DNA of 34,041 nt from Chloroflexota bacterium (GTDB lineage Bacteria; Chloroflexota; Dehalococcoidia; GIF9; UBA5629). The DNA lies in NCBI GenBank assembly GCA_026389715.1, contig JAPLHK010000094.1:21129-55169 (forward strand), written 5' to 3'. Positions 11,778 to 34,041 of the stretch are shown in pieces (the first letter of the stretch is position 1; the number at the start of each line of letters is the position of its first letter). The position numbers were made by a program, and so were the translations under genes. A model generated the notes under the pieces. The model was not told the origin of the DNA. It saw only the letters and a list, made by a program, of their open reading frames with translations, and made no database searches.

Positions 11778-13475
11778 CTATTTGTCGGCCTTACCCTTCG
11801 CCAGGTGCTCTTCCTGCAGCACACGCCGCAACACCTTGCCCACCATGGTCTTGGGCAGGGCATCGCGGAACTCCACGTGTTTGGGTATTTTATAGGCGGT
11901 CAGCTTATCGCGGCAAAAGACCTGGATCTCTTCAACGGTGCACTGTTGTTCCGTCCTCAATACTACCCAGGCCTTGACGGCCTCGCCCTGTGCGGCGTCG
12001 GGCACACCGGCTACACCCACCTCAAGCACCGCCGGGTGCTGTGAGATGATCTCCTCTATCTCGACGGGGAAGACCTGATGGCCGCTGGGCTTGATTAGGT
12101 CCTTTTTGCGCGAGGTGATGAAGAGGTAGCCGTCCTCGTCCAGGTAGCCGATATCACCCGTATACAGCCAGCCGTCGCGCAGCATCTCGGCTGTAGCTTC
12201 GGGACGATTCCAGTAGCCCTGCATGATGTGCGGCCCGCTGGCTATGATCTCGCCGGCCTCTCCAGCTTTCATCTCCTGCTTACCGGTCTCGATATCGACA
12301 ATTTTGATTACCGTATCGGGGGTAGGCATGCCCACGGCGCCTTCCTTCCATTTGCCCAGGAAAGGTCCCATGGCCAGCACGCCCGATTCAGTCAGGCCGT
12401 AGGCCTCAACGATTTTGCCGCCGGTGACCGCCTCCCACTGCCGCTTGGTTTCGGGCAGAAGGGGCGCGGCCGCCGCCACGGAGGATTTCATGGTCTTGAA
12501 ATCGATCTTGCCCGATTTTACCTCCGGCCTGTTCATCAACCCGATGAAGATTGCCGAGATAGCCGGAAAGAAGGCGGGCTTTACCTTTTTTATGGTAGCC
12601 AGCACATCCGGCACCTCGCGGGGGTTGGCTATCAATGCAGTCGGGTAGCGGCCGGCGATGGCGGTGGACAGCAGTATCACATTACCGTACACATGGAAGA
12701 AGGGCATCAATAGAACGAGCGTATCCACCCAGTCTGTGGCCAGAGGCTTCGACCAGCAGTGTATCTGCCGCCCGTTCATAAATATGGACTCGTGGCTGAG
12801 CATGACGCCCTTGGGAGTGCCGGTGGTGCCGCCGCTGAAGAGCAGCAGGCCGGTATCCTTGCCGGTTACCTTAATATCAGGTTTCCTGTCACCCGCGTGT
12901 TTTTTCATCAGGTCCTGTAGCCAGATATCGTTACCCTGCACCCTACCCAGGTATTGTCCAAGCTTCTTTTCCATCAGCAGTGTGAACATGAATTTCATAA
13001 ATGGCGCCAGGTATTCCTTGATGCTGGTAGCGATAAGCAGCCGCAGGCTGGTGCGTGGCTGTATCTTCTTCACCACATCATAGTATGCGGTAAGCACTAT
13101 CGCCACTTCCGCGCCACATTCTTTGAGCGCAAACTCCAGTTCGCCTTCACTGTAAAGCGGATTGATAGGTACGGAGATGGCCCCGGCCTTCCAGATAGCG
13201 AGTTGACCGATGACTACATTCGGGCAATTCGGCAGGAGCATGGCTACCCTGTCACCCTTCTTTACACCAACTGCCACCAAACCAGCGGCGAGCACATCGC
13301 TCAGGTGGTCTATCTCCTTGTAAGACATCCACCTGCCCTTGAACCAGATCATGTGATGTCCAGGCTTCTCTTTTGCCACATCAGCCACATCCTCGAATAG
13401 TGTCTTATCGCGATAAGGCACAAGCGTGTGCGGAACACCTGGATCGTAATGTTTAAACCACGGATAATCTGCCAA
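11778..13475 (-). CDS. Acyl-CoA synthetase (AMP-binding ligase), array copy A
   Basis: 565 aa: LLLFSGGTTGTPKGVMLSH, EAYGLTESG, GWLYTGDIGYLDEDGYLFITSRKKDLIKPSGHQV, PKTMVGKVLRRVL; AGGAGG ribosome-binding site before a TTG start. Confidence 0.92.
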   Translation of the reverse strand: MADYPWFKHYDPGVPHTLVPYRDKTLFEDVADVAKEKPGHHMIWFKGRWMSYKEIDHLSDVLAAGLVAVGVKKGDRVAMLLPNCPNVVIGQLAIWKAGAISVPINPLYSEGELEFALKECGAEVAIVLTAYYDVVKKIQPRTSLRLLIATSIKEYLAPFMKFMFTLLMEKKLGQYLGRVQGNDIWLQDLMKKHAGDRKPDIKVTGKDTGLLLFSGGTTGTPKGVMLSHESIFMNGRQIHCWSKPLATDWVDTLVLLMPFFHVYGNVILLSTAIAGRYPTALIANPREVPDVLATIKKVKPAFFPAISAIFIGLMNRPEVKSGKIDFKTMKSSVAAAAPLLPETKRQWEAVTGGKIVEAYGLTESGVLAMGPFLGKWKEGAVGMPTPDTVIKIVDIETGKQEMKAGEAGEIIASGPHIMQGYWNRPEATAEMLRDGWLYTGDIGYLDEDGYLFITSRKKDLIKPSGHQVFPVEIEEIISQHPAVLEVGVAGVPDAAQGEAVKAWVVLRTEQQCTVEEIQVFCRDKLTAYKIPKHVEFRDALPKTMVGKVLRRVLQEEHLAKGKADK

Positions 13476-13511
13476 GTCAAACCTCCTGATTTGGTATCAT
13501 AATATCTTGAC

Positions 13512-13576
13512 GTCATTGCGAGGCGCCGCGGCAATCTCATTATCGCAGTAGATTGCTTCGCTTCGCTCGCAATGAC
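13512..13576. repeat. Nested palindromic dispersed-repeat element (MITE/REP-like), full copy
   Basis: GTCATTGCGAG (13512-13522) pairs with CTCGCAATGAC (13566-13576); inner GCAATCT (13531-13537) pairs with AGATTGC (13550-13556). Related partial copy at 30403-30438. Confidence 0.8.
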
Positions 13577-13579
13577 ATG

Positions 13580-15241
13580 TTAACCCTTCTTTTTAGCTTT
13601 CTCCTCTTCCTGCAGCACGCGGCGCAGTATCTTGCCTACCAGCGTCTTAGGTAACGCCTCCCTGAATTCGATAAACTTAGGCACCTTGTAAGCTGTCAGC
13701 TTATCTTTACAGTAATTTTGCAGGTCTTCTTCAGTAACCTTCTCTCCCGGCCGCACTATGACCCAGGCCTTGACTGCCTCAACCTGTTTTTGGTCCGGTA
13801 TCCCCGCCACACATGCCTCAACCACGGCGGGGTGGGTGGCCAGCACTTCCTCCACCTCCTTGGGCCAGACCTGGTGGCCGCTGGGCTTGATCAGGTCCTT
13901 CTTGCGCGATGTCAGGTAGAGGTATCCATCCTTATCCATGTAGCCGATGTCCCCGGTATAGAGCCAGCCATCCTTTAACATCTCGGCCGTCCCCTTAGGG
14001 TTGTTCCAGTAGCCCTGCATGACCTGAGGGCCTTTGCCGACCACCTCGCCCTCCTCACCGTAAGGCAGGTCTTTATCCGGGTCAGCCGCATCGACAAACT
14101 TAATTATCACATCGGGCAGGGGCAGTCCGACGGCGCCCTCCTTCCATTGCCCTTTCATCGGGCCAATAGTAAAAACCACGGTGGACTCTGTCATACCATA
14201 GGCCTCAAGTATAGGCGCGCCGGTCATGGTCTCCCATCTCTGTTTGGTTTCAGCCATCAGCGGGATGGCACCGGAGATACAATATTTCAAACAGCTAAAA
14301 TCCACCTTGCCCGCCTTCACCTCGGGACGCTCCATCAGGCTTATGAACAACGTCGGTACGCTGGGCATCGAAGCCGGCCGGACCTTATTGATTGTGTAAA
14401 TTACATCATCAAGGTCCCGCGGATTGGCCACAATGGCCAGCGGGCTGCGCATGCCGATTGAGCTACAGATAACACCGTTAAAACCGTAGGCATGGAACAT
14501 GGGCATAAGTGCCATGGTATAGTCATTGTGTGACATCATGCCCTGCTTGTTCCACTCGATGCTCTGCAAGCCAACCGCCAGCATGTTCCTGAAAGACAGC
14601 ATCGCACCCTTGGGCGCCCCGGTGGTGCCGCCGCTGAACAGGATCAGGGCAGTATCCTCTCCGCTGCGCTTGACCTTGGGCGCAAGGTCCTTGGCATGCT
14701 TTGCCATCATTTCATCCATCCACATATCGCCCTTTTCCAGTTGCATGGTATGTGGTTTCTTGGCCTCGGGCAGCATGTAATCTTCCAGTGACGTGGCGAT
14801 AACCAGGCGCAGCTTGGTACGGGGTTGCACCTTCTTTACACTGGCATAAAGCAGGTCCCAGACAACGATGACCTCGGCATCCACCGTAGACAGCGTATGC
14901 ACAAGCTCATCCTCGTTGTACAGGGGATTAAGCGGCACATAGATGCCGCCGGCTTTCATGGCGCCGAATGCGGCGATGAGCTGCTGCGGGGTGTTCAGCA
15001 GCATGCTGGCCACACGGTCTCCCGGTTTGACCCCGTTGGCAATCAACGCCGCGGCCAGGACTTCAAAAAGTCTACTGGCCTCCCGGTAGGGAAAATACCT
15101 GTCCTTGAAGTACATGAAAGTATGTTCGGGCATCTCTTGCGTTGTCTGGGCAATAACATCCAGCAATGTGATTTTCGGGTATGGCTCCAGTGAATGTGGT
15201 ACACCGGCATCATAGGATTTGTACCATGGATAATCCGCCAT
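13580..15241 (-). CDS. Acyl-CoA synthetase, array copy B
   Basis: 553 aa: LILFSGGTTGAPKGAMLSF, EAYGMTEST, GWLYTGDIGYMDKDGYLYLTSRKKDLIKPSGHQVWP, PKTLVGKILRRVL; GAGGAGG ribosome-binding site. Confidence 0.92.
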   Translation of the reverse strand: MADYPWYKSYDAGVPHSLEPYPKITLLDVIAQTTQEMPEHTFMYFKDRYFPYREASRLFEVLAAALIANGVKPGDRVASMLLNTPQQLIAAFGAMKAGGIYVPLNPLYNEDELVHTLSTVDAEVIVVWDLLYASVKKVQPRTKLRLVIATSLEDYMLPEAKKPHTMQLEKGDMWMDEMMAKHAKDLAPKVKRSGEDTALILFSGGTTGAPKGAMLSFRNMLAVGLQSIEWNKQGMMSHNDYTMALMPMFHAYGFNGVICSSIGMRSPLAIVANPRDLDDVIYTINKVRPASMPSVPTLFISLMERPEVKAGKVDFSCLKYCISGAIPLMAETKQRWETMTGAPILEAYGMTESTVVFTIGPMKGQWKEGAVGLPLPDVIIKFVDAADPDKDLPYGEEGEVVGKGPQVMQGYWNNPKGTAEMLKDGWLYTGDIGYMDKDGYLYLTSRKKDLIKPSGHQVWPKEVEEVLATHPAVVEACVAGIPDQKQVEAVKAWVIVRPGEKVTEEDLQNYCKDKLTAYKVPKFIEFREALPKTLVGKILRRVLQEEEKAKKKG

Positions 15242-15291
15242 TTGTCTGCCTCCTCACAAATTTTTTATACACTATATTAATATATTCGGCT

Positions 15292-15559
15292 TTATTTTTC
15301 CTGTTTGCCTTTCTCCTCTTCCTGCAGGACTCTGCGTAGCACCTTGCCCACGAACGTTTTGGGCAAATCCTTGCGGAATTCGATAAACCTGGGGACTTAA
15401 TAACCGGTCAGCTTCTCCCGGCAGAATTTCTGCAGCTCCCCGGGGCTAACGGTTTGTCCTCCCTTCAGTACAATCCAGGCCTTGACAGCTTCCATCTGCC
15501 TGGGATCGGCTATGCGGCACACCCGGGTCATAGCTTTTGTACCATAGATAGTCGGTCAT
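15292..15559 (-). pseudogene. Acyl-CoA synthetase remnant: N-terminal 16 codons joined to about 75 C-terminal codons
   Basis: Minus strand reads MTDYLWYKSYDPGVPH from 15559, then in another frame IADPRQMEAVKAWIVLKGGQTVSPGELQKFCREKLTGY*VPRFIEFRKDLPKTFVGKVLRRVLQEEKGKQEK*. Internal stop at 15397-15399. Confidence 0.88.
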
Positions 15560-15573
15560 TTCAGTGTCCTTAC

Positions 15574-15605
15574 AGCCGCCGCCTGCCAGTCAGCAGGCGG
15601 CGGCT
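15574..15605. repeat. Perfect 12-bp GC-rich inverted repeat, intergenic
   Basis: AGCCGCCGCCTG-CCAGTCAG-CAGGCGGCGGCT; lies between array copies C and D; no T-tract. Confidence 0.75.
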
Positions 15606-15642
15606 ACTTGATTCAGTCAGCCTTTGAGATCTTATGCAATTA

Positions 15643-17369
15643 TTATTTCTTGGCCTTTTCTTCCTCAACCAGGACACGGCGCAGCACCTTGCCCACCATG
15701 GTCTTGGGCAATTCACTGCGAAATTCGATGAATTTGGGTATCTTGTAGGCCACGAGCTTATCCTTACACCAGGCCTGAATATCTTCCGGTGTGATCTTTT
15801 TGCCTGATTCCATTACCACCCAGGCCTTGACAGCTTCTCCCTGCTTGGCATCCGGGATACCGGCCACGCAAACCTCGGCCACATCCGGGTGGGAACTGAT
15901 AGCCTCCTCCACCTCACGCGGCCATACCTGGAAGCCGCTGGGCTTGATGAGGTCTTTCTTACGCGAGGTAATGAAAAGGTAACCGTCCTCGTCCAGGTAT
16001 CCGATGTCACCCGTATACAGCCAGCCGTCCCTGAGCATATCGGCAGTTTCCTCGGGCTTGTTCCAATAGCCGACCATAAGCTGGGGCGCTTTGACGACGA
16101 TTTCCAATAGCCGACCATAAGCTTGGGCGCTTTGACGACGATCTCGCCCTCTTTGCCGGCCGGCAGATCGCCTTCACCTGTCTCGATATCTCCGATCCTG
16201 ACGACGACATCCGGAAGCGGCATGCCGGTGGAACCTTCCTTCCACTTGCCCAGGTACGGTGTGACGCAGGAAGCCATGGTAGTCTCGGTAAGAGCATAGC
16301 CTTCCACGATTCGGCCGCCGGTTAATGCCTCGAAGCGTTTCTTGGTGTCAGCCAGCAGGGGCGCCGCACCCGAGACACAGAACTTCATCGACTTGAAATC
16401 TATTTTCCCGGCTTTGACCCACGGGTGCTCAAGCAGCCCTATGTACAGGGCAGGCACCGCGGGGAAAAAGGTGGGTCTGTCGTGTTGAATGGTCTTAAGC
16501 AGGTCTTCGCGGTCGCGCGGGTTCGGCACCAACGACATGGCCACGTGGCCTACAACCGCTGTACTCATGACTCCGAAAGTTGAGTATGAATGAAACAGCG
16601 GCAGGAGAGTCATAATTATATCCTTGTAACTCTCTATTAAGGTGCCAAACCAGGCCATATACTGCAGCCCCGTGACAACCTGGGAATGGTGTGTGCCGAT
16701 TACGCCCTTGGGCGTCCCTGTCGTGCCGCCGCTGAACAGGATCAGCGCATAATCAGACGGCAGTACCTTTAAATCAGGCCTTTTGGCCCCGGCCTTTTGC
16801 TTTATCAAATCAAGCATCCAGTAATCGCCTTTTGCAAGCTCGATGTAGTGTCCTTCCTTCTTTTCCTTAACCAGTGTAAACAGCACATTGAGCACTGGCG
16901 GAAGGTAGTCTTTGATACTGGTGGCAATTACCAGCTTGACCTTGGTGCGAGGCTGCAGCTTCTTAAACTGATTGTAGAACATAGTCATTACGACCACTGT
17001 TTCGGCGCCACAGTCGTTGAGCGCGTGTTCCATCTCAGCATCAGTATACATAGGGTTCACGTGGACCAGTATGGCTCCCGCTTTCCAGACGCCCCAGCGG
17101 CAGATAATAGCCTGTGGTATATTCGGCATTATCAGCGCCACACGGTCTCCCTTCTTTACTCCCTTCTCCACCAGCGCCGCAGCGAATTCATCGCTCCACT
17201 TCTGCACTTCAGCATAGGAAATCTTGCGATTTTTAAAATAAAGCATGGGGTAGTCAGGATGTTCTTTGGTCGATTCATCAACATAATCGATGAGCGTCTT
17301 CTGCGGGTAGGGTTCCAGTGTCTTTGGGACTCCGGGATCGTAATTCTTTAACCATCGGTATTCTGCCAT
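15643..17369 (-). pseudogene. Acyl-CoA synthetase, array copy D, frameshifted by a 41-bp tandem duplication
   Basis: N-terminal part in ORF 15813..17369 and C-terminal part in ORF 15643..16107. Total span 1727 nt; minus 41 nt = 1686 nt = 562 codons, a full-length ligase frame. Confidence 0.88.
16061..16142. repeat. 41-bp imperfect tandem duplication (2 copies, one mismatch)
   Basis: Copy 1 16061-16101 ttccaatagccgaccataagctggggcgctttgacgacgat; copy 2 16102-16142 differs only in ctgggg versus cttggg. Confidence 0.95.
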
Positions 17370-17465
17370 GCAACAACCTCCAAGCGATTTTATTTTACGA
17401 TGGAATCGATTATACCATACTGCCCCCGGCCAATCAGGACCGGGGGCAGCTTACTACCGGTTATC

Positions 17466-19157
17466 CTATTTTTTGTTTTTAGCTGTCTCTTCTTCCTGCA
17501 GCACTCTTCTCAATACTTTGCCAACCATGGTCTTGGGCAGATCGCTACGGAATTCCACATACTTGGGTATCTTATAGGCTACTAATTTCTCCTTGCACCA
17601 GGCCTGAATCTCCTCGGCTGTGGCCGTTTTGCCGGCCTCCAGCACAATCCAGGCTTTGACTGCCTCGCCCTGCTTGGCATCGGGTATGCCCGCCACGCTG
17701 ACCTCGGCGACCGCCGGATGACTACTGATAACCTCTTCGACCTCCCTTGGCCAAACCTGGAAGCCGCTGGGCTTGATAAGGTCCTTCTTGCGGGAAGTGA
17801 TGAACAGGTAGCCATCGTCATCCATGTAACCCACGTCGCCTGTATAGAGCCAACCATCCCGCAGCATCTCTTTGGTCTCCTCCGGTCTATTCCAGTAGCC
17901 TACCATAAGCTGCGGGGCCTGGAAGATGATCTCTCCTTCTTTGCCGGCAGGCATTTCACCTTCGCCGGTCTGAATATCGCCGATGCGGATAATGACGTCG
18001 GGCAGCGGCATACCCACCGAGCCCTGCTTCCACTGACCCCGGTAAGGGGTGCAGGTGCAGGCCATGGTGGTCTCGGTAAGCCCGTAGCCCTCCACGATGC
18101 GCCCACCGGTGATGTCTTCGAACCTCTTCTTGGTTTCATACAACAGTGGCGCCGCGCCCGAGTTGCAGCATTTCATTGAGCTGAAATCAACCTTGCCTGC
18201 CTTGACTGCCGGGTGCTCCAGAAGCGCGATAAACATTGCCGGAACCGCCGGGAAATAGGTAGGTTTATCGTGCTGAATCGTGGCAATGACATCGTCCCGG
18301 TCACGCGGGTTGGGCACCAGCGACATCGCACTATGGCCGATGATAGCCGTGCACATCACGGCGTAGGTCGCGAATGAATGGAACAGCGGTAAAACAAGCA
18401 TCATCACGTCCTTGTAGGGCTCGGCGATCTCGCCAAACCACCTGTTGAACTGCAAGCCGGTGATGACCTGTGAATGGTGGCTCCCCACCACACCCTTGGG
18501 AGTGCCGGTAGTGCCGCCGGAGAAAAGTATCAGCGCGTTATCGCCGGGCAGGACCTTAACATCGGGCCGTTTGGCCCCTGCTTTCTCTTTTATAAGATCC
18601 GTCAGCCAAAAATCACCGGCCTGCAATACGATGCGATGACCCTCTTTCTTCTCCATGGCCAATGTGAAGAGCACCTTGAGCACCGGCGGGAGATAGTCCT
18701 TGATACTTGTGGCGATTACCAGCTTAACCTTGGTACGCGGTTGCAGTTTCTTAAACTGGTTGTAAAACATGGTCATAACAACCACCGTTTCTGCGCCGCA
18801 GTCGTTGAGCGCATGCTCCATTTCCGCCTCAGTGTACATCGGGTTCATATGCACCAGGATAGCGCCGACCTTCCAGGCGCCCCAACGGCAAATGATAGCC
18901 TGCGGTATATTCGGCATGATCAGCGCCACGCGGTCGCCCTTCTTTACACCTTTGGCTGCCAGCGCCGCGGCGAACTCATCGCTCAACTTCTGGATCTCGG
19001 CATAGGACATCTTCCTCTTCTTGAAAAGCACCATGGGGTAATCGGGGTGCTCCTTGACAGCCTCATCAACGTAGTCTACCAGGGTCTTCTGCGGATAGGG
19101 CTCCAGGGTCTTGGGAACGCCTTTGTCATAGTTATTTAACCACCTTTTGTCAGACAA
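17466..19157 (-). CDS. Acyl-CoA synthetase, array copy E
   Basis: ORF track gives 17466..19196, but AGGAGG followed by TTTTAAC and TTG supports a TTG start at 19157 (LSDKRWLNNYDKGVPKT), matching paralog N-termini. LILFSGGTTGTPKGV; PKTMVGKVLRRVL. Confidence 0.88.
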   Translation of the reverse strand: MSDKRWLNNYDKGVPKTLEPYPQKTLVDYVDEAVKEHPDYPMVLFKKRKMSYAEIQKLSDEFAAALAAKGVKKGDRVALIMPNIPQAIICRWGAWKVGAILVHMNPMYTEAEMEHALNDCGAETVVVMTMFYNQFKKLQPRTKVKLVIATSIKDYLPPVLKVLFTLAMEKKEGHRIVLQAGDFWLTDLIKEKAGAKRPDVKVLPGDNALILFSGGTTGTPKGVVGSHHSQVITGLQFNRWFGEIAEPYKDVMMLVLPLFHSFATYAVMCTAIIGHSAMSLVPNPRDRDDVIATIQHDKPTYFPAVPAMFIALLEHPAVKAGKVDFSSMKCCNSGAAPLLYETKKRFEDITGGRIVEGYGLTETTMACTCTPYRGQWKQGSVGMPLPDVIIRIGDIQTGEGEMPAGKEGEIIFQAPQLMVGYWNRPEETKEMLRDGWLYTGDVGYMDDDGYLFITSRKKDLIKPSGFQVWPREVEEVISSHPAVAEVSVAGIPDAKQGEAVKAWIVLEAGKTATAEEIQAWCKEKLVAYKIPKYVEFRSDLPKTMVGKVLRRVLQEEETAKNKK

Positions 19158-19220
19158 GTTAAAACCTCCTAATGATTTGATTTTATCGTCAAGCATTATA
19201 CGCCTAACTAACCCATTGGC

Positions 19221-20927
19221 TCACGGTTTGGCAGCCGCCTTTTGCTTAGCCAGCTCTTCCTCTACAAGCACCCGTTTCAATATTTTACCCACCAGGGTCT
19301 TGGGTAATTCCGCCCTGAATTCAACATGCTTGGGCACCTTGTAGGCCGTCAGCTTCTCTCTGCAATGCAACTGAATTTCCTCGGCGGTAGCCGTTTCCCC
19401 CTGGCGCAGCACCACCCAGGCCTTGACTGCCTCGACCTGGTATGGATCAGGTATTCCTGCCACTCCAACCTCGGAAACCTTGGGATGCATGCTTATTACC
19501 TCTTCAACTTCCCTCGGCCAGACCTGGAAGCCGCCGGGCTTGATCAGCTCCTTTTTACGTGAGGTGATAAACAGGCAACCCTCATCATTCAGGTAGCCGA
19601 CATCCCCTGTATGCAGCCAGCCGCTGCGTATCATATCGGCGGTGGCCTCAGGCCTGTTCCAGTAGCCCTGCATCATCTGCGGGCACTGAGCAATTATCTC
19701 GCCCTCCTGGCCGGCAGGCATATCCTTCTCACCGGTTTCAACATCAACGATACGCAGTATAACATCCGGCAGAGGCACCCCAGCCGAACCCGGGGTCCAT
19801 TTACCCTCCACCGGTCCCAGCGTGATGGCAGCTGTAACCTCCGTCATACCGTACCCCTCAATAAGCTTGCCGCCAGTCAGTTCCTCAAAGCGCCGCTTGG
19901 TTTCGGGCAGCAATGGGGCCGCTGAGGCCACGCAAAGCTTCATCGATTTAAAATCGACTTTGCCCGCCTTTACCGCCGGGTGCTCCAGCAGTGCAATAAA
20001 AAGCGTCGGCACGGCCGGGAAGTAAGCCGGCCTGACGGTCTTGATTGTCTTTACCAGGTCATCACGGTCGCGCGGGTTGGGCACCACGGCCAGCGGGTTG
20101 TGCCCCATGATAGAAGTGCCCATCACGCCGGCAAAGCCGTAAACATGGAATAGCGGCATGATCATCATCACCACATCATCCCACTCGGTCAATACACTAT
20201 CGTTCCACACCTTGAGCTGCCAGGCCTCGGCTATCAGGCATTTGTGCGTGAGGATAACGCCCTTGGGCACGCCCGTAGTGCCGCCGCTGAAAAGCAGCAA
20301 CGCCACGTCGCCCGGCAACGGCTTATTGACGGGCGCGGCATGCCCGGCATGCTTGAGCATAAGGTCGGCTAAGTAAACATCATTCTGTGTAAGCTTTATG
20401 CGGTGACCTTCTTTTTTCTCCTTTAGCAATGTGAACATCAAGGCCAGGAAGGACGGCAGGTATTCCTTGATATTGACAGCTATCACCAGGCGCAGGCTGG
20501 TGCGCTCCTGTATCTTCTTCACCGTGGCATAGAAGGGTGTCAGCACCACCGCCACCTCCGCGCTGCATTCTTTCAACACATGTTCCAGCTCATACTCAGT
20601 GTACACGGGGTTGAGCGGCACGGGGATGGCTCCCGCTTTCCAGGCGCCGAACGACGCGATGAAACCCTGAGGGCAATTGGGCAGGAGGATGGCTACACGG
20701 TCTCCTTTCTTCACGCCGTTAGCCTGCAGAGCTGCCGCGAATACATTAAATAGCCTGACCATTTCACCATAAGTAACTGTATTTCCCTTGAAGAACAGGA
20801 AAGGATGGCCGGGCTTCTGCTTTGCGGCATCTTCCACGACGTCTAAAAATGTCACTGCAGGATACGGTTCCAGGGTATGCGGAACCCCTTTATCGTAGCT
20901 TTTAAACCACGGGTAATCAATGGCCAT
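19221..20927 (-). CDS. Acyl-CoA synthetase, array copy F
   Basis: 568 aa: LLLFSGGTTGVPKGVILTH, EGYGMTEVT, GWLHTGDVGYLNDEGCLFITSRKKELIKPGGFQVWP, PKTLVGKILKRVL. Confidence 0.92.
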   Translation of the reverse strand: MAIDYPWFKSYDKGVPHTLEPYPAVTFLDVVEDAAKQKPGHPFLFFKGNTVTYGEMVRLFNVFAAALQANGVKKGDRVAILLPNCPQGFIASFGAWKAGAIPVPLNPVYTEYELEHVLKECSAEVAVVLTPFYATVKKIQERTSLRLVIAVNIKEYLPSFLALMFTLLKEKKEGHRIKLTQNDVYLADLMLKHAGHAAPVNKPLPGDVALLLFSGGTTGVPKGVILTHKCLIAEAWQLKVWNDSVLTEWDDVVMMIMPLFHVYGFAGVMGTSIMGHNPLAVVPNPRDRDDLVKTIKTVRPAYFPAVPTLFIALLEHPAVKAGKVDFKSMKLCVASAAPLLPETKRRFEELTGGKLIEGYGMTEVTAAITLGPVEGKWTPGSAGVPLPDVILRIVDVETGEKDMPAGQEGEIIAQCPQMMQGYWNRPEATADMIRSGWLHTGDVGYLNDEGCLFITSRKKELIKPGGFQVWPREVEEVISMHPKVSEVGVAGIPDPYQVEAVKAWVVLRQGETATAEEIQLHCREKLTAYKVPKHVEFRAELPKTLVGKILKRVLVEEELAKQKAAAKP

Positions 20928-21002
20928 TATTCAGCCTCCCCAGATATTTTATAGTCATCAGCAATGGATATCAGTTTAATACCACCTTCAGTTAAACGCC
21001 GC

Positions 21003-22703
21003 TTACTTCTTATCGTCAGTATCCCCGGCCTTTTCCTCCTCAAGTAAAACACGCCTGAGTATTTTGCCTATCTGCGTCTTGGGCAGCGCGTCGCGGAACT
21101 CTATCCGGCGCGGTACCTTGTAGGCCGCCAGCTTGGCCTTGCAGTGCTCCTTCAATTCATCGGCGCTGCAGGTCATGCCTGCGTTTAAGACTACCCAGGC
21201 CTTTACGGATTCGCCCTGATACTGGTCGGGTACGCCGGCCACGCCTGCCTCCATGACAGCAGGATGCTCATGTAAAACTTCCTCGATCTCGCGCGGCCAA
21301 ACCTGGAACCCGCTGGTCTTGATGATCTCCTTCTTGCGGCTATGCAGGAAGAGGTTCCCATCTTCGTCCAAATAACCGATATCGCCTGAATACAGCCAGC
21401 CGTCCCGCATCATGTCCGCGGTTTCCTGCGGCTGGTTCCAGTATTCTTTCATCAGGTTGGGCGCCTGGAAGCATATCTCGCCAAGCTGACCGGGCTTCAT
21501 GCTGCCCCGGCCGGTCTCGGCATCGGCAATCCTTATCACCACATCCGGCAGCGGCATGCCGACCGAGCCTTCCTTGTTGGCGCCAATTACGGGGTTAACC
21601 GTAGCAGCCTGCATGCACTCGGTCATGGTGTAACCTTCCAGCAGCCTTCCGCCAGTCATACTTTCAAAGCGTTTCCTGGTCTCCGCCATCAGCGGGGCAG
21701 CGCCCACGATGCAGAGCTTCATGCTCTCCAGCGTGACCTTGCCCGATGTCACCAGCGGGTGGTTCATAATGCCGATGTAGAAAGTCGGCACGCCCGGCAT
21801 GAAGGTCGGCTTATATTTCTTTATGCTCTTGACCACGTCCGTGAGGTCGCGCGGGTTGGGTATAATGACACATGAGGAGTGGTTAACCATGGCTGTGCCC
21901 ATGGCGCCCACACAGCCAAATACGTGGAAAAGCGGCATGGTCAGCGCCACTTTATCTTCCCATTGCTCAAGCACCGGGCTCAGCCAGGCACAGATCTGCA
22001 TGGCCGTCATAACCAGCGCCTGGTGAGTCCCCACAGCTCCTTTAGGCGTCCCTGTCGTTCCCCCACTGAAGAGGATGACTGCCGGGTCCGAGGGTTTCAC
22101 CTCAATGGCCGGTCGCCTGGCATTCCTGTACTTCTTAAGTACATCCTGGAACCACGCGTCGCCATGTTTAAGGCCGATGCGGTAGCCCTCCTTTTTCTCC
22201 CTGGCCAGCGTGAAAAGCAAGCGCAGGGGCTGAGGCAGGTATTCCTTGATATTGGTGGCGATAACAAATTTGACCCTGGTCTTGCCCTGGATATTCTTAA
22301 CGGCGTTATAGAACGGGTTAAGGACGATCACCGCCCGGGCATCGACCTCGTTCAAAGCGTGTTCGATCTCATGTTCAGTGTAAAGCGGGTTGACCGGGAC
22401 GGCTATGGCGCCCGCTTTCCAGATTGCCTGGAAACCAAGTATCATCTGGGGACAATTGGGCAAAAGCATAGCCACACGTTCGCCTTTCTGCACGCCCATG
22501 GCAACCAGCGCAGTGGCCAGCGCATTGCTCTGGCGGATAAAGTCCGCATATAGCACTTTGGAACCCTTGAAATACAACATGGCGCGGTAGGGTTTAGCTT
22601 TGGCGGATTCATCGACGATCTCGATCATCGTCTTTTGCGGGTAAGGTTGAAGCGTCAGGGGCACGCCCTTATCGTAATTCTTCAACCACGGATAGTCCGT
22701 CAT
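21003..22703 (-). CDS. Acyl-CoA synthetase, array copy G (first in the direction of transcription)
   Basis: 566 aa: VILFSGGTTGTPKGAVGTH, EGYTMTEC, GWLYSGDIGYLDEDGNLFLHSRKKEIIKTSGFQVWP, PKTQIGKILRRVL. Confidence 0.92.
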   Translation of the reverse strand: MTDYPWLKNYDKGVPLTLQPYPQKTMIEIVDESAKAKPYRAMLYFKGSKVLYADFIRQSNALATALVAMGVQKGERVAMLLPNCPQMILGFQAIWKAGAIAVPVNPLYTEHEIEHALNEVDARAVIVLNPFYNAVKNIQGKTRVKFVIATNIKEYLPQPLRLLFTLAREKKEGYRIGLKHGDAWFQDVLKKYRNARRPAIEVKPSDPAVILFSGGTTGTPKGAVGTHQALVMTAMQICAWLSPVLEQWEDKVALTMPLFHVFGCVGAMGTAMVNHSSCVIIPNPRDLTDVVKSIKKYKPTFMPGVPTFYIGIMNHPLVTSGKVTLESMKLCIVGAAPLMAETRKRFESMTGGRLLEGYTMTECMQAATVNPVIGANKEGSVGMPLPDVVIRIADAETGRGSMKPGQLGEICFQAPNLMKEYWNQPQETADMMRDGWLYSGDIGYLDEDGNLFLHSRKKEIIKTSGFQVWPREIEEVLHEHPAVMEAGVAGVPDQYQGESVKAWVVLNAGMTCSADELKEHCKAKLAAYKVPRRIEFRDALPKTQIGKILRRVLLEEEKAGDTDDKK

Positions 22704-22835: not shown

Positions 22836-23903
22836 TCATTTTATTCGTAAATCACCCTGCCCCGTCAGAGCCTGCCGCCGCAGTTGCCCGCAGGCCGCCT
22901 CAATCCCCTCCCCGCGCTGCTCCCTCTGTGTCACAGTGATACCGGCCTCTTCCAGCACGCGGCGGAAGTTAGTCACGCGAAACGTTTCAGGCGGATAGAA
23001 ACCACTGCCGCTGACCTTATTAAACGGTATGAGGTTTACGTGGCAGTTCAACCCCTGCAACAGCACGGCCAGCTTGGCGGCATCGGCCTGCCCGTCGTTG
23101 ACCCCTTTCAACAAACAGTATTCGAAAGTTACGCGCCGCCCTGTTTCCCTGAAATAGTGCTTGCAGGCATCGGCTATCTCCTGGAGCGTGTAGCGCGTCA
23201 TGCCGGGCACCAGCTTCCTGCGCAGGGCATCATCGGCCGCGTGCAACGAGACCGCCAAAGTCAACTGCAGGTCCTCGCCGGCCAGCCTGTAAATGCCGGG
23301 CACATAGCCGATGGTGCTCACGGTGATGTTGCGCATGCCGATGGCTAACTCGCCGTTGATCAGGTGCACTGCCGCCAGCGTCGCGTCATAATTGAGGAGC
23401 GGTTCGCCCATGCCCATAAAGACCACGTGGCTGACCCTGCCGTCCGCTGCCAGCAGCTTCCCTTTTATAGCAGCCTCACCGACAGTCATCACCTGGTCAA
23501 CTATTTCCCCGGCCGACAGGTTGCGCTTAAACCCTCCCGTGCCGGTTGCGCAGAAAGCGCAGCCGATGGGACAGCCTACCTGGGTGGATACGCAGCAGGA
23601 GAAGCGGCCTGCATAGGGCATTCCCACCGTCTCCACCAGTTCCCCATAGACGGGTTGTAAGAGCAGCTTGAAGGTGCCGTCCTTTGACTTGCTGATCTTT
23701 TTTACCTTGGAGCGGCCTATCTGATAGCCCTCTTCCAGCTTCGCCTTGAAGGCAACAGGCAAAGTGGCCATCCCGCTTATCTCGCGGCAACCCTGCCGGT
23801 ATAGCCAGTCGGCGACCTGCTTACCGCGGAACTCCTTTTCACCCAGCTCTTTAGCCAGCAGCTTCAATTTAACTGTGGACATGCCCAGCAGTAGCTTTTT
23901 CAT
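22836..23903 (-). CDS. rlmN: 23S rRNA / tRNA adenosine-C2 methyltransferase RlmN
   Basis: Radical SAM CxxxCxxC within STQVGCPIGCAFCATGTGGFKRNL; VVFMGMGEPLLNYD; SLHAADDALRRKLVP; C-terminal RGEGIEAACGQL. ORF track start is a TTG at 23924; ATG at 23903 looks likelier. Confidence 0.92.
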   Translation of the reverse strand: MKKLLLGMSTVKLKLLAKELGEKEFRGKQVADWLYRQGCREISGMATLPVAFKAKLEEGYQIGRSKVKKISKSKDGTFKLLLQPVYGELVETVGMPYAGRFSCCVSTQVGCPIGCAFCATGTGGFKRNLSAGEIVDQVMTVGEAAIKGKLLAADGRVSHVVFMGMGEPLLNYDATLAAVHLINGELAIGMRNITVSTIGYVPGIYRLAGEDLQLTLAVSLHAADDALRRKLVPGMTRYTLQEIADACKHYFRETGRRVTFEYCLLKGVNDGQADAAKLAVLLQGLNCHVNLIPFNKVSGSGFYPPETFRVTNFRRVLEEAGITVTQREQRGEGIEAACGQLRRQALTGQGDLRIK

Positions 23904-23969
23904 TTTCTTAGTTTCCCCGACCAATTATGTATTAGTGGCGGGCAGACTGCAAGCATTAACACATTCGGT

Positions 23970-23998
23970 TTGACCGCCCTGTTTTTTAGGAGTAGCAT
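23970..23998 (+). promoter_or_regulatory. Candidate sigma70 promoter of the orphan + strand unit
   Basis: TTGACC (23970-23975), 17-nt spacer, TAGCAT (23993-23998). Confidence 0.6.
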
Positions 23999-24004
23999 GA
24001 AATT

Positions 24005-24297
24005 GAGGGTAATAAACAAGACTAACCCTCGCGGAGGTGGTTAATGGTCAAAAAACAGGCCATGTTAGTTGAATGGCACTTTCCTTGGTCACGCTCTCAC
24101 CTGCGCGAGGAGCAGAGGTAAGCTCCCCGGGTGCAGGCATTGAGAGCAGGTAAAACTCCCGAGCTCTCCGGTACGTAGCAAAAGAGCTGCGGAATAAGGG
24201 ACATAGCAGATAAATCGGGCTTACCTGAATGGGAGAGTAGGGAGGAAAATGGATCCGAAAGATCTAAGGGGCTTCGCGGCGCGAAGCCCCTTTATTT
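24005..24297 (+). ncRNA. Putative structured RNA / orphan leader-type transcript, family not recognised
   Basis: Promoter to terminator unit between divergent rlmN and the convergent activase gene. Stems: TAACCCTC/GAG(GT)GGTTA (24023-24043); GCTCTCA CCTGC / GCAGG (cat) TGAGAGC (24093-24147) with inner GGAGC/GCTCC; CCGAGCTCT/AGAGCT(g)CGG (24159-24192); long-range AGGTAAGC (24116-24123) with GCTTACCT (24219-24226). 5' end inferred from the promoter. Confidence 0.55.
24044..24121 (+). CDS. Putative 25-aa small ORF / leader peptide MVKKQAMLVEWHFPWSRSHLREEQR
   Basis: ATG preceded by GGAGGT with a 5-nt spacing (GGAGGTGGTTAATG); stop codon falls in the 24114-24121 hairpin loop. Confidence 0.4.
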   Translation: MVKKQAMLVEWHFPWSRSHLREEQR

Positions 24298-24300
24298 ATT
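24266..24300 (+). terminator. Intrinsic terminator, possibly bidirectional
   Basis: AAGGGGCTTCGC-GGC-GCGAAGCCCCTT (24266-24292) followed by TTATTTATT. Also 24 nt downstream of the activase stop on the minus strand. Confidence 0.85.
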
Positions 24301-24316: not shown

Positions 24317-25273
24317 TTAATACCCGGCGGTGGCATCCAATCCTTTAGCCTTGAATATCCCGATTATCCCGCTCAGGCGCTCTTCAGTTAGAGGCGTGCG
24401 CCCGCTCAACTGGTAGGCCCTGCCCAGCGACTGGTACTTGGCCCTGCCCCACTCGTGGTAGCCCAGCAGTGATACTTTCTCGGCCTTCATGCCCTGCAGC
24501 CTTCCGGCCAATTCCTGCATATAACGGTCACTGTCGTTGTAGCCAGGGATGACGGGCACTCTTATCCAGATCCTGGACATATTGGCCGCCATTAACTTCT
24601 CCAAATTGGAGAGGATAAGCTTATTGTCGGTTCCGGTGCCGTCGCGGTGCTCCTCACTGTCGATATGCTTTACATCGAAAAGCACCAGGTCTGTATATGC
24701 CAGCGCTTTCTCCAATGTTTCCCAGGGTACCTGTCCGCAGGTGTCCAGCGCTGTTCTGAAACCGCGCTCTTTGAGATTGCGGAGTAACTCCAGGGCAAAA
24801 TCGGCCTGTAGCAAAGGTTCGCCGCCCGACAGTGTGACGCCTCCTCCCGAGTTGCGGTAGAAGAGTTCATCCTTTGAGCATTCCTCAATCACTTCATCCA
24901 CGGTCATCTGCCGGCCGGCCAGCTCAAGTACGTCCTCCCAGCAGGCTTCGACGCATTTCAGGCAGAGGTCACATTTAACCCTGTCTAAACGCAGACCGCT
25001 GGCAGCCAGGGATAGCGCGCCCGGCGCACATACCTTGATGCAGCGGCCGCAGCCATTGCAGCGGGTTTCCCTGACCATCAACTCCGCAAAGGTATTAATC
25101 GATTCCGGGTTTGAGCACCACTTACAGCGCAGGGGGCAACCCTTGAAAAAGACCGTGCTCCTGATGCCGGGCCCGTCATGTATGCTGTAGCGCTGGATAT
25201 TGAAGACCACGCCTTTATTACCGGCGCTGCCCTTCTCCCCGCTGCCTGCAGACTCTCTGGAGTCTAAAAGCAC
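24317..25273 (-). CDS. Glycyl-radical enzyme activating protein (radical SAM, extra ferredoxin-like domain)
   Basis: 318 aa: IHDGPGIRSTVFFKGCPLRCKWCSNPES; CNGCGRCIKVC and CDLCLKCVEAC clusters; GGGVTLSGGEPLLQ; DTCGQVPW. Overlaps the end of the glycyl-radical enzyme ORF by 10 nt. Confidence 0.93.
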   Translation of the reverse strand: MLLDSRESAGSGEKGSAGNKGVVFNIQRYSIHDGPGIRSTVFFKGCPLRCKWCSNPESINTFAELMVRETRCNGCGRCIKVCAPGALSLAASGLRLDRVKCDLCLKCVEACWEDVLELAGRQMTVDEVIEECSKDELFYRNSGGGVTLSGGEPLLQADFALELLRNLKERGFRTALDTCGQVPWETLEKALAYTDLVLFDVKHIDSEEHRDGTGTDNKLILSNLEKLMAANMSRIWIRVPVIPGYNDSDRYMQELAGRLQGMKAEKVSLLGYHEWGRAKYQSLGRAYQLSGRTPLTEERLSGIIGIFKAKGLDATAGY

Positions 25274-32400: not shown

Positions 32401-34041
32401 CTATTTGAACTTACCGCTTAATATGGTTCTGATCTCCCTCTTGAGAATCTTCCCCACTGCGCTGGTGGGTAGCTGGTCGAAGAATTCTATGGTCTTGGGC
32501 ACCTTGTAGGGGGCAACCTTGCCCTTAAGGTACTCGATTATCCTGGCTTTCTCGGCGTCGCTTTTCTCTATGCCGGGCTTGAGAATGATGGCCGAGGCAA
32601 CTATCTCGGTCCCCGGCCTGTCGGGATTATGTATTCCCACAGTGGCACACATATCCACGTCCGGGTGCTCGCAGATTACATCATCCAATTCGCGGGTAAA
32701 CACCTTGAACCCCGAGACGTTGACCATGTCCTTTATCCGATCCACAATGGTTACGAACCCCTCATCATCCATCTTGCCCACGTCGCCCGTGTAGAACCAG
32801 CCGTTCCGCAGCGCGTTGGCCGTCTCGTCCGGTTTTCTGAAATAGCCCTTGGTGAATACCTGCGGCCCCCTCACAGCTATCTCGCCCGGCTCATTGAATG
32901 GCACTGGTTCACCGGTTGCGGGGTCAATGATTTTTATATCGGTATCGGGGAAGGGTATACCCACCGCACCCGGTATCTTCTTGCCATAGCGGGGATTGGC
33001 CGTTATGATCGGGCTGGTCTCGGTCAGGCCGTACACTTCCACCAGCTTGTTCTCACCTACAATTTTCTCAAAATCCTTGATATATTCGGGAGGGAACGGG
33101 GCGGCGCCGCTGGCGAAATACTGGACGTCGCTGAAATCATAGGCTTTGAAGCCCGGCTGTTTGATCAGCTCCAGGTAAACCGTCGGGACGTTGCCGATAA
33201 TACTCGGCCGGTGCTTCTTCATGGCCTTGATGATAAATTGCTGATCGCGCGGGTTGGGCACCGCGACCTGTGTGTTGGCCTTGGCAAATAGCGCCATGCA
33301 TATCACAAGTCCGGCAATATGAAATAGCGGGAACGCCGTCATACCGACCAACTCACCCATCGGGGCATCTAACCAGGTGTTTATCTGGAACATCTGTGAG
33401 GTCATGTTGCGGTGCGTCAGTTCCGCGCCCTTGGGCAGGCCGGTGGTACCGCCGGTGTACTGCATCACGCAGGTATCATCCATACTTACTTTTTCCGATA
33501 CAGGGTCGGCGGGCAGGCTCTTCATGACCTGCTTGAAATCGTATATTTCTATTCCCGGTATAGGCAGCACCTTGCCTGTGGGGATCTTCTTCAGCATTTT
33601 CCCCATGGTGGCCAGCACCGGGGAGAGGTAATCGGCGATGCCCGTAAATACAATGGCCTTAAGCTCCGTGCCTCCGATGCTCTTGATAATTCGCGGGTAA
33701 AGCGCATCGAGGGTCACCAGCACCTTGGCACCGGAATCCTTGAGCTGGTGGTTGAGCTCGTCAGCAGTGAGCAGCGGGCTGACGCCGGTGAGCACACAGC
33801 CTGCCTTCTGTATGCCGACCAGGCCGATGTAATAAGCAGGTAGATTGGGAAGGTTTATACCTACTGTATCGCCTTTCTTCAGACCGATCTTCTTGAGCAG
33901 GTTGGCGAAGCGGTTGGACATCTCGTCCATCTGCTTGAAAGTGAAGGGGGTGCCCATGTAGTACAGCGCCACGCGGTTGGGAAATCCCTTAAAGGCCGGC
34001 TCAATAGCCTCCCAGAACGTTTTATCTGGGTATTGCAGGTT
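32401..34041 (-). CDS. Partial CDS: acyl-CoA synthetase / long-chain fatty acid-CoA ligase-like, separate from the tandem array
   Basis: VMQYTGGTTGLPKGAELTH, EVYGLTETSP, GWFYTGDVGKMDDEGFVTIVDRIKDMVNVSGFKV, PTSAVGKILKRE. Frame stays open upstream to the edge (NLQYPDKTFWEAIEPAFKGFPNRVALYYMG), so the true start is outside the window. Confidence 0.9.
   Translation of the reverse strand, partial: NLQYPDKTFWEAIEPAFKGFPNRVALYYMGTPFTFKQMDEMSNRFANLLKKIGLKKGDTVGINLPNLPAYYIGLVGIQKAGCVLTGVSPLLTADELNHQLKDSGAKVLVTLDALYPRIIKSIGGTELKAIVFTGIADYLSPVLATMGKMLKKIPTGKVLPIPGIEIYDFKQVMKSLPADPVSEKVSMDDTCVMQYTGGTTGLPKGAELTHRNMTSQMFQINTWLDAPMGELVGMTAFPLFHIAGLVICMALFAKANTQVAVPNPRDQQFIIKAMKKHRPSIIGNVPTVYLELIKQPGFKAYDFSDVQYFASGAAPFPPEYIKDFEKIVGENKLVEVYGLTETSPIITANPRYGKKIPGAVGIPFPDTDIKIIDPATGEPVPFNEPGEIAVRGPQVFTKGYFRKPDETANALRNGWFYTGDVGKMDDEGFVTIVDRIKDMVNVSGFKVFTRELDDVICEHPDVDMCATVGIHNPDRPGTEIVASAIILKPGIEKSDAEKARIIEYLKGKVAPYKVPKTIEFFDQLPTSAVGKILKREIRTILSGKFK

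Follow-up and report, generated by a model that had tools for sequence, protein, structure and literature searches.

We propose, at a probability of roughly 0.45, that the unit described here is a gene in its own right whose product is a ~290-nt dual-function RNA, the fold of which would be gated by the translation of its own open reading frame (ORF). The existence and the structure of this unit are strongly supported, one RNA probably performs two linked jobs, and to our knowledge it is the first described member of an RNA family of the class Dehalococcoidia. Because the unit is autonomous, is conserved throughout the class and combines a coding signature with a covarying structure, a dual-function RNA or a trans-acting sRNA fits the data; both options had already been put forward in a sequence-only reading of the locus.

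Organisation of the unit

The window, i.e., the whole 34,041-nt stretch of DNA that was analysed, belongs to a 2.0 Mb assembly which is 93% complete. The setting recognised in the sequence-only reading, between a divergent rlmN and a convergent activase gene, is confirmed by NCBIfam matches to both flanking genes, and the promoter, the 25-codon ORF, the nested stem (borne out by folding and named H1 here) and the strong terminator that it had claimed were all recovered in the window as follows:

22836..23924, minus strand: rlmN (NCBIfam TIGR00048), divergent flank outside the unit
23970..23998, plus strand: sigma70-like promoter, -35 TTGACC (23970-23975), 17-nt spacer, -10 TAGCAT (23993-23998), 9/12
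near 24005, plus strand: transcript start predicted from the promoter
24005..24030, plus strand: 5' hairpin H0 (GAGGGT ... ACCCTC), arms 24005-24010 and 24025-24030, 2 nt 5' of the Shine-Dalgarno (SD) sequence, from folding and covariation
24033..24037, plus strand: strong SD sequence GGAGG, with similar spacing in all homologues
24044..24121, plus strand: 25-codon ORF MVKKQAMLVEWHFPWSRSHLREEQR*, ATG at 24044, conserved portion residues 1-16 (x-x-Q-A-x-L-C/V-x-W-x-F-P)
24093..24147, plus strand: hairpin H1 (GCTCTC ... GAGAGC), 5' arm formed by the C-terminus of the ORF, stop codon in the loop
24156..24169, plus strand: 5' strand of the long closing helix H2 (CTCCC GAG CTCTCC), 96.5-100% of cells paired, two-sided changes
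24174..24191, plus strand: inner hairpin, H3 region, GTAGC.../GGCTGC in the window's family (f1) and GGCTC...GAGC, covarying, in other families; helix 4 88.7% paired
24204..24227, plus strand: H4 hairpin (24216-24227), loop pairing back to TAGC at 24204-24207, likely H-type pseudoknot
24232..24244, plus strand: 3' strand of helix H2 (GGGAGAG TA GGGAG), internal loop GAG/UA nearly invariant
24250..24266, plus strand: small hairpin TGGATC ... GATCTA preceding the terminator, from the minimum free energy fold
24266..24292, plus strand: intrinsic terminator AAGGGGCTTCG-CGG-CGCGAAGCCCCTT, then TATTTATT, from the sequence
24317..25273, minus strand: glycyl-radical enzyme activase (NCBIfam TIGR02494), convergent flank outside the unit

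Judged by these signals, the unit would be an autonomous transcription unit with its own promoter and terminator. The fold of the 307-nt transcript reaches -118.6 kcal/mol, against -91.7 +/- 5.3 kcal/mol for shuffled sequences (z = -5.1; 0/100 shuffles). Two structures proposed from the sequence alone had to be revised. The hairpin said to lie over the ribosome-binding site does exist, but it stops before the SD sequence (24005-24030) and does not cover it. The local stem placed at 24159-24192 needs AGAGCT, a sequence shared by only this genome and two near-identical ones; what is conserved at this place is instead the long-range helix 24156-24169/24232-24244, which closes around two hairpins. 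The small hairpin preceding the terminator reads GGATC-GAA-GATC in the window's family and is a different small palindrome (ATTGAATA...TATTCA) in other families.

Elsewhere in the window, six tandem acyl-CoA synthetase/ligase-like genes occupy positions 11778-22703 of the minus strand and a seventh lies at 32401-33972, forming an unusual cluster of paralogues. One gene of this kind, at 15643-17369, is split over two frames (ORFs 15813-17369 and 15643-16107), and the repeated stretch found at the break (APxLMVGYW.., SSKRPSLWSAIG..) suggests a small frameshifting duplication or else an error of assembly.

Distribution within the Dehalococcoidia

The sequence-only reading had made conservation among relatives a touchstone of its proposal, and homologues are indeed spread over the whole class Dehalococcoidia (Chloroflexota), in sister genera as well as in complete genomes of another family. 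A genome search found the unit in single copy in its own genome, and blastn against 100 relatives recovered it, with 72-97% identity, from 12 members of the genus and family; most of them have one copy, and genome G027 has it at two places. This last genome, a member of the window's family, carries two diverged copies, one beside rlmN and the other elsewhere; the second has kept the 25 codons, with W-x-F-P replaced by W-Q-I-D. A covariance model restricted to the RNA part (R1; 154 positions, the first of them 49 nt past the start codon) retrieved the unit in 28 of the 100 relatives, including a second family of the order. Every R1 hit is preceded by a strong SD sequence and by a start codon, 43-49 nt ahead of the RNA domain, that opens an ORF of 21-28 codons whose product shows the same motif (MTRREAWLCRWMFPDRGFLAT is an example); since the SD sequence and start codon were no part of the search, they provide an independent check.

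A second covariance model (R2), built from other lineages, gave matches in 49 of the 84 genomes of the order (18/26 of the near-complete ones) and in 43 of 393 genomes of the class; when 399 genomes were drawn from the whole phylum, all matches were to members of the class Dehalococcoidia. With the same model, some near-complete genomes of the same order yielded no detectable copy, although gaps in MAGs restrict the weight of such absences. In family f15 the element is present in all three complete, single-contig genomes of 1.4-1.5 Mb of one genus and in none of the eight genomes of the sister genus. A scan of 85,462 named genomes with an exact pattern returned 30 stretches, 27 of which pass the covariance model: 26 come from Dehalococcoidia or Chloroflexi MAGs and one is labelled Candidatus Acetothermia. 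The latter (PUMK01000075.1) holds a typical copy of the element and is probably a misbinned contig, as it stems from the same B1Sed10 sediment series as Dehalococcoidia hits. The three stretches which fail the model, from the unrelated taxa Brachybacterium, an Oscillospiraceae and Nocardiopsis, were set aside as chance matches.

No known RNA family had been recognised when the locus was read by eye, and Rfam 15 agrees, giving at gathering thresholds no match in the window or in 10 homologous loci spanning several families of the class; a permissive Rfam search produced chance-level matches only (E 0.56-6.7), as did blastn against plasmids. We found no description of such a Dehalococcoides RNA in the open-access literature searched, which included few subscription papers.

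The architecture itself is constant. All 38 homologues examined show the order SD sequence, ORF of 21-28 codons, H1 and three-way-junction RNA domain; in 37 of them a promoter motif TTG[AC]-N-TANNNT precedes the start codon, in most cases by 73-93 nt, and 36 have a terminator. A hairpin ending at the SD sequence is likewise found in 36/38, in a crude test that composition-shuffled controls pass in 66% of cases, so that the support for H0 comes from covariation, namely from pairs with two-sided changes in the window's family, and not from this count.

A covarying RNA domain with a likely pseudoknot

Covariation among homologues, on which the proposal had also been made to depend, is present: it supports H1, the long helix and two inner hairpins, and makes an H-type pseudoknot likely. 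RNAalifold returned the same domain from two independent sequence sets. When the 34-pair structure was laid over 23 sequences from outside the window's genus, 92.7% of cells were paired and 18 pairs showed changes on both sides (0/500 shuffles), and the control in which the structure was slid by 1-3 columns gave 40-57% of cells paired. Two-sided changes affect 8 of the 12 pairs of H1 in the set from other families, H2 reads CCCC-GAG-CUCUUC / GGAAGAG-UA-GGGG in the set from other lineages with a nearly invariant internal loop, and the H4 helix is 83% paired. Within H1, the first four pairs hardly vary and the inner pairs covary freely.

Across lineages the pseudoknot would be formed by CGG/CCG, UGG/CCA, CUG/CAG, CAG/CUG, GGA/UCC or UAGG/CCUA, its counterpart in the window's family being AAGC/GCUU. 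The score of matched pairs is 7.3, whereas permuted pairs reach 5.45 +/- 0.41 (0/1000, in a kind of test that relatedness inflates); despite this relatedness, the many independent pair types make the pseudoknot likely.

The sequence-only reading had further suggested two mutually exclusive pairings, as in switches and attenuators. One of them, between AGGTAAGC in the H1 loop, which holds the stop codon, and GCTTACCT in the last hairpin, has 88.5% of its cells paired in the window's family, where it also covaries to some extent; a duplex permutation test supports it within that family (p = 0.013) and not outside it (p = 0.20). This contact may be a family-specific tertiary contact or a switch, and the location of the stop codon within the pairing suggests that a terminating ribosome would block it. 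The other, CAGGTAA+CCCG with CGGG+TTACCTG, has 75% of cells paired, which is no better than shuffles, and we do not retain it. The attenuator idea is thus borne out by half: the overlap of ORF and hairpin holds, but of the two exclusive pairings one fails on covariation and the other is confined to a single family.

We also note that the strand GCTCTC and its complement recur in both H1 and H2, which would in principle allow four strands to swap partners. When the 5' arm of H1 was blocked in silico, most homologues retained the folded downstream domain, and an exchange of strands 2:3 seldom won; the melting of H1 therefore need not rearrange the rest. On the same ground we make no claim to a trp-like 1-2-3-4 strand exchange based on the GCUCUC repeat of H1 and H2, the 3:4 domain persisting in most homologues.

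The short ORF and its overlap with H1

The ORF is probably translated, as judged from its pattern of substitution. Its conserved motif is Q-A-x-L-C-x-W-x-F-P, and in frame, codons 2-16 show a pN/pS of 0.54 in the window's family and 0.46 in family f3 (overall range 0.46-0.60), against 0.78-1.63 for the same codons in the other two frames; none of 200 column shuffles gave a value as low as the observed 0.56. Over codons 17-24 the ratio is 1.0 in the window's family: there the coding signal disappears after codon 16 because this stretch is the 5' arm of H1. The ORF overlaps the 5' arm of the hairpin in every homologue, as it would in an attenuator, and the stop codon falls at position 15-36 of the domain, between the arms of H1, in 37/37 homologues tested. 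Since the stop is always in the H1 loop, a translating ribosome must open H1 in every species.

Searches of five peptides against Pfam and NCBIfam gave nothing above cut-off; the one match, of a homologous peptide to the Tap leader model, is weak (E = 0.07, below cut-off) and probably due to chance. Pairing of the SD sequence with TTTCCT, the codons of F-P, is a weak lead, at -10.8 kcal/mol for a sequence's own partner versus -9.8 for permuted ones in a permutation confounded by relatedness.

Genomic neighbourhood

Apart from rlmN and the activase gene, the neighbours were named by eye from their translations. Upstream of the homologues are found rlmN, a pilin-like gene, a nucleotidyltransferase, an ABC exporter, pheA, tat genes and others, and downstream the activase, arsenic genes, purine genes, secG on the opposite strand, or recN some 400 nt away. 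Among the homologues whose flanks were compared, no same-strand gene follows consistently: there is neither the adjacent regulated downstream gene of a riboswitch nor the regulated gene past the terminator of an attenuator. The earlier remark that nothing is encoded beyond the terminator was correct for this locus, and it extends to the homologues insofar as they have no consistent downstream gene. In three families of the class the element adjoins the secG region, with secG usually convergent and a gatB or SAM hydrolase-like gene beyond it, a neighbourhood more stable than elsewhere.

Discussion

Since the structure covaries, a function at the RNA level is likely. In the dual-function reading that we prefer, the RNA would be a regulator acting in trans, and ribosomes on the ORF would decide whether H1 folds, possibly by pausing near the invariant W-x-F-P just before H1; the state of H1 would then couple the active form or the stability of the RNA to translation of the ORF, and the peptide may have a role of its own. 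A more elaborate version, which we consider rather doubtful, would make the unit attenuator-like but without a gene attached to it at any time: the nascent W-x-F-P peptide would sense translation or a small molecule, and the position of the ribosome on H1 would set the trans activity of the pseudoknotted RNA, one copy being kept class-wide.

Two simpler explanations each discard one half of the unit. If the small protein were the sole product, the structured RNA would be a 3' UTR, there to stabilise the mRNA or to control its translation; the strong SD sequence, the coding signature, the conserved peptide motif and an intrinsic terminator in nearly all homologues are what one would expect, and yet we find this explanation unlikely, given that the coding constraint stops at about codon 16, that conservation and retrievability are higher in the RNA that follows the ORF, and that a junction with a pseudoknot exceeds the needs of a 3' UTR. 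Conversely, the unit might be a structured non-coding RNA (an sRNA or a protein-binding RNA) with an ORF translated weakly or only to melt H1 and an idle peptide. The RNA part being the most conserved, the position of the stop codon varying only within the H1 loop and the C-terminal half of the peptide being unconstrained in the window's family all speak for it; it is nonetheless unlikely in our eyes, to much the same degree, as codons 2-16 are conserved class-wide at the amino-acid level with synonymous change.

The remaining explanations carry far less weight. A leader whose gene was lost, as the sequence-only reading had envisaged, would have been a cis-acting attenuator, and the layout of leader ORF, hairpin and terminator, together with the one alternative pairing that covaries within the window's family, recalls such elements. 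However, the flanks vary by family, the terminator is kept class-wide and is followed by an opposing or unrelated gene, and because no gene consistently follows, the unit does not appear to be such a leader; comparison of neighbourhoods largely refutes this explanation, which is now very improbable. Just as improbable is a highly diverged housekeeping RNA (6S, tmRNA, SRP or RNase P RNA) lying below the Rfam thresholds. The 6S slot does appear empty, with RF00013 matching in 0/7 genomes of the window's genus and finding 6S RNA in 5/14 reference genomes, and a structured RNA with a peptide frame has its classical example in tmRNA; but the tmRNA sits elsewhere in the same genome (162 bits; found in all seven genomes of the genus), in none of its lineages does the element score with an Rfam family, and an ordinary SD sequence and start codon with a three-way junction are unlike 6S RNA. 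As specific candidates, tmRNA and 6S RNA were rejected, the element matching neither RF00023 nor RF00013. The least probable explanation of all is a type I toxin-antitoxin unit or another selfish peptide gene, for which a short ORF, a strong SD sequence and a structured mRNA might plead: the peptide has charged ends and a hydrophobic stretch of about 10 residues, with no membrane helix, the unit is single copy with no association with mobile genes, and an antisense promoter looked for at the unit was not found.

Several known systems share parts of this organisation. In RepY/RepZ and Tap/RepA of IncI and IncF plasmids, leader translation ends inside a hairpin and unfolds it, upon which a pseudoknot or a coupled start can form; termination of leader translation within a hairpin is common to both, whereas these plasmid systems control a downstream rep gene in cis and our unit has no downstream gene. 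The structured RNA of the Downstream-peptide and yfr6 RNAs of cyanobacteria is a glutamine riboswitch. These ~250-nt transcripts also combine a structured RNA with a short conserved ORF (PMC2864571), but their structure is a 5' UTR before the ORF and that of our unit comes after it. The dual-function RNAs VcdRP of Vibrio cholerae, with an ORF of 29 aa (PMC8672173), and SgrS/SgrT (PMC4021124) are similar in organisation, being stand-alone terminated transcripts with a short ORF and an RNA part; they act by base pairing through a short seed, whereas our unit has a long covarying junction with a pseudoknot and an ORF that overlaps the first hairpin of the RNA part. The rnTrpL/peTrpL pair of Sinorhizobium, an attenuator-derived sRNA and its leader peptide which are both reported to act in trans (PMC7298713), likewise consists of a leader peptide and a terminated leader RNA, but rnTrpL precedes trpE(G) and also regulates it in cis, and our unit precedes no gene. 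Finally, the ribosome-dependent leader/attenuator motif ilvB-II of Corynebacterium (PMC10272879) is likewise a conserved RNA motif whose structure overlaps a small, conserved ORF, and differs by its regulated downstream operon and a peptide rich in control codons, neither of which is found here.

It is thus the absence of a downstream gene, combined with a class-wide junction-pseudoknot RNA, that separates the unit from its closest analogues, and a class-wide, single-copy structured RNA that is absent from Rfam is unusual. Dehalococcoides is culturable and is important for the dechlorination of groundwater pollutants. As the peptide is co-conserved and the overlap between the ORF and the RNA fold is fixed, leader-type sensing of translation in the absence of a downstream gene would be directly testable.
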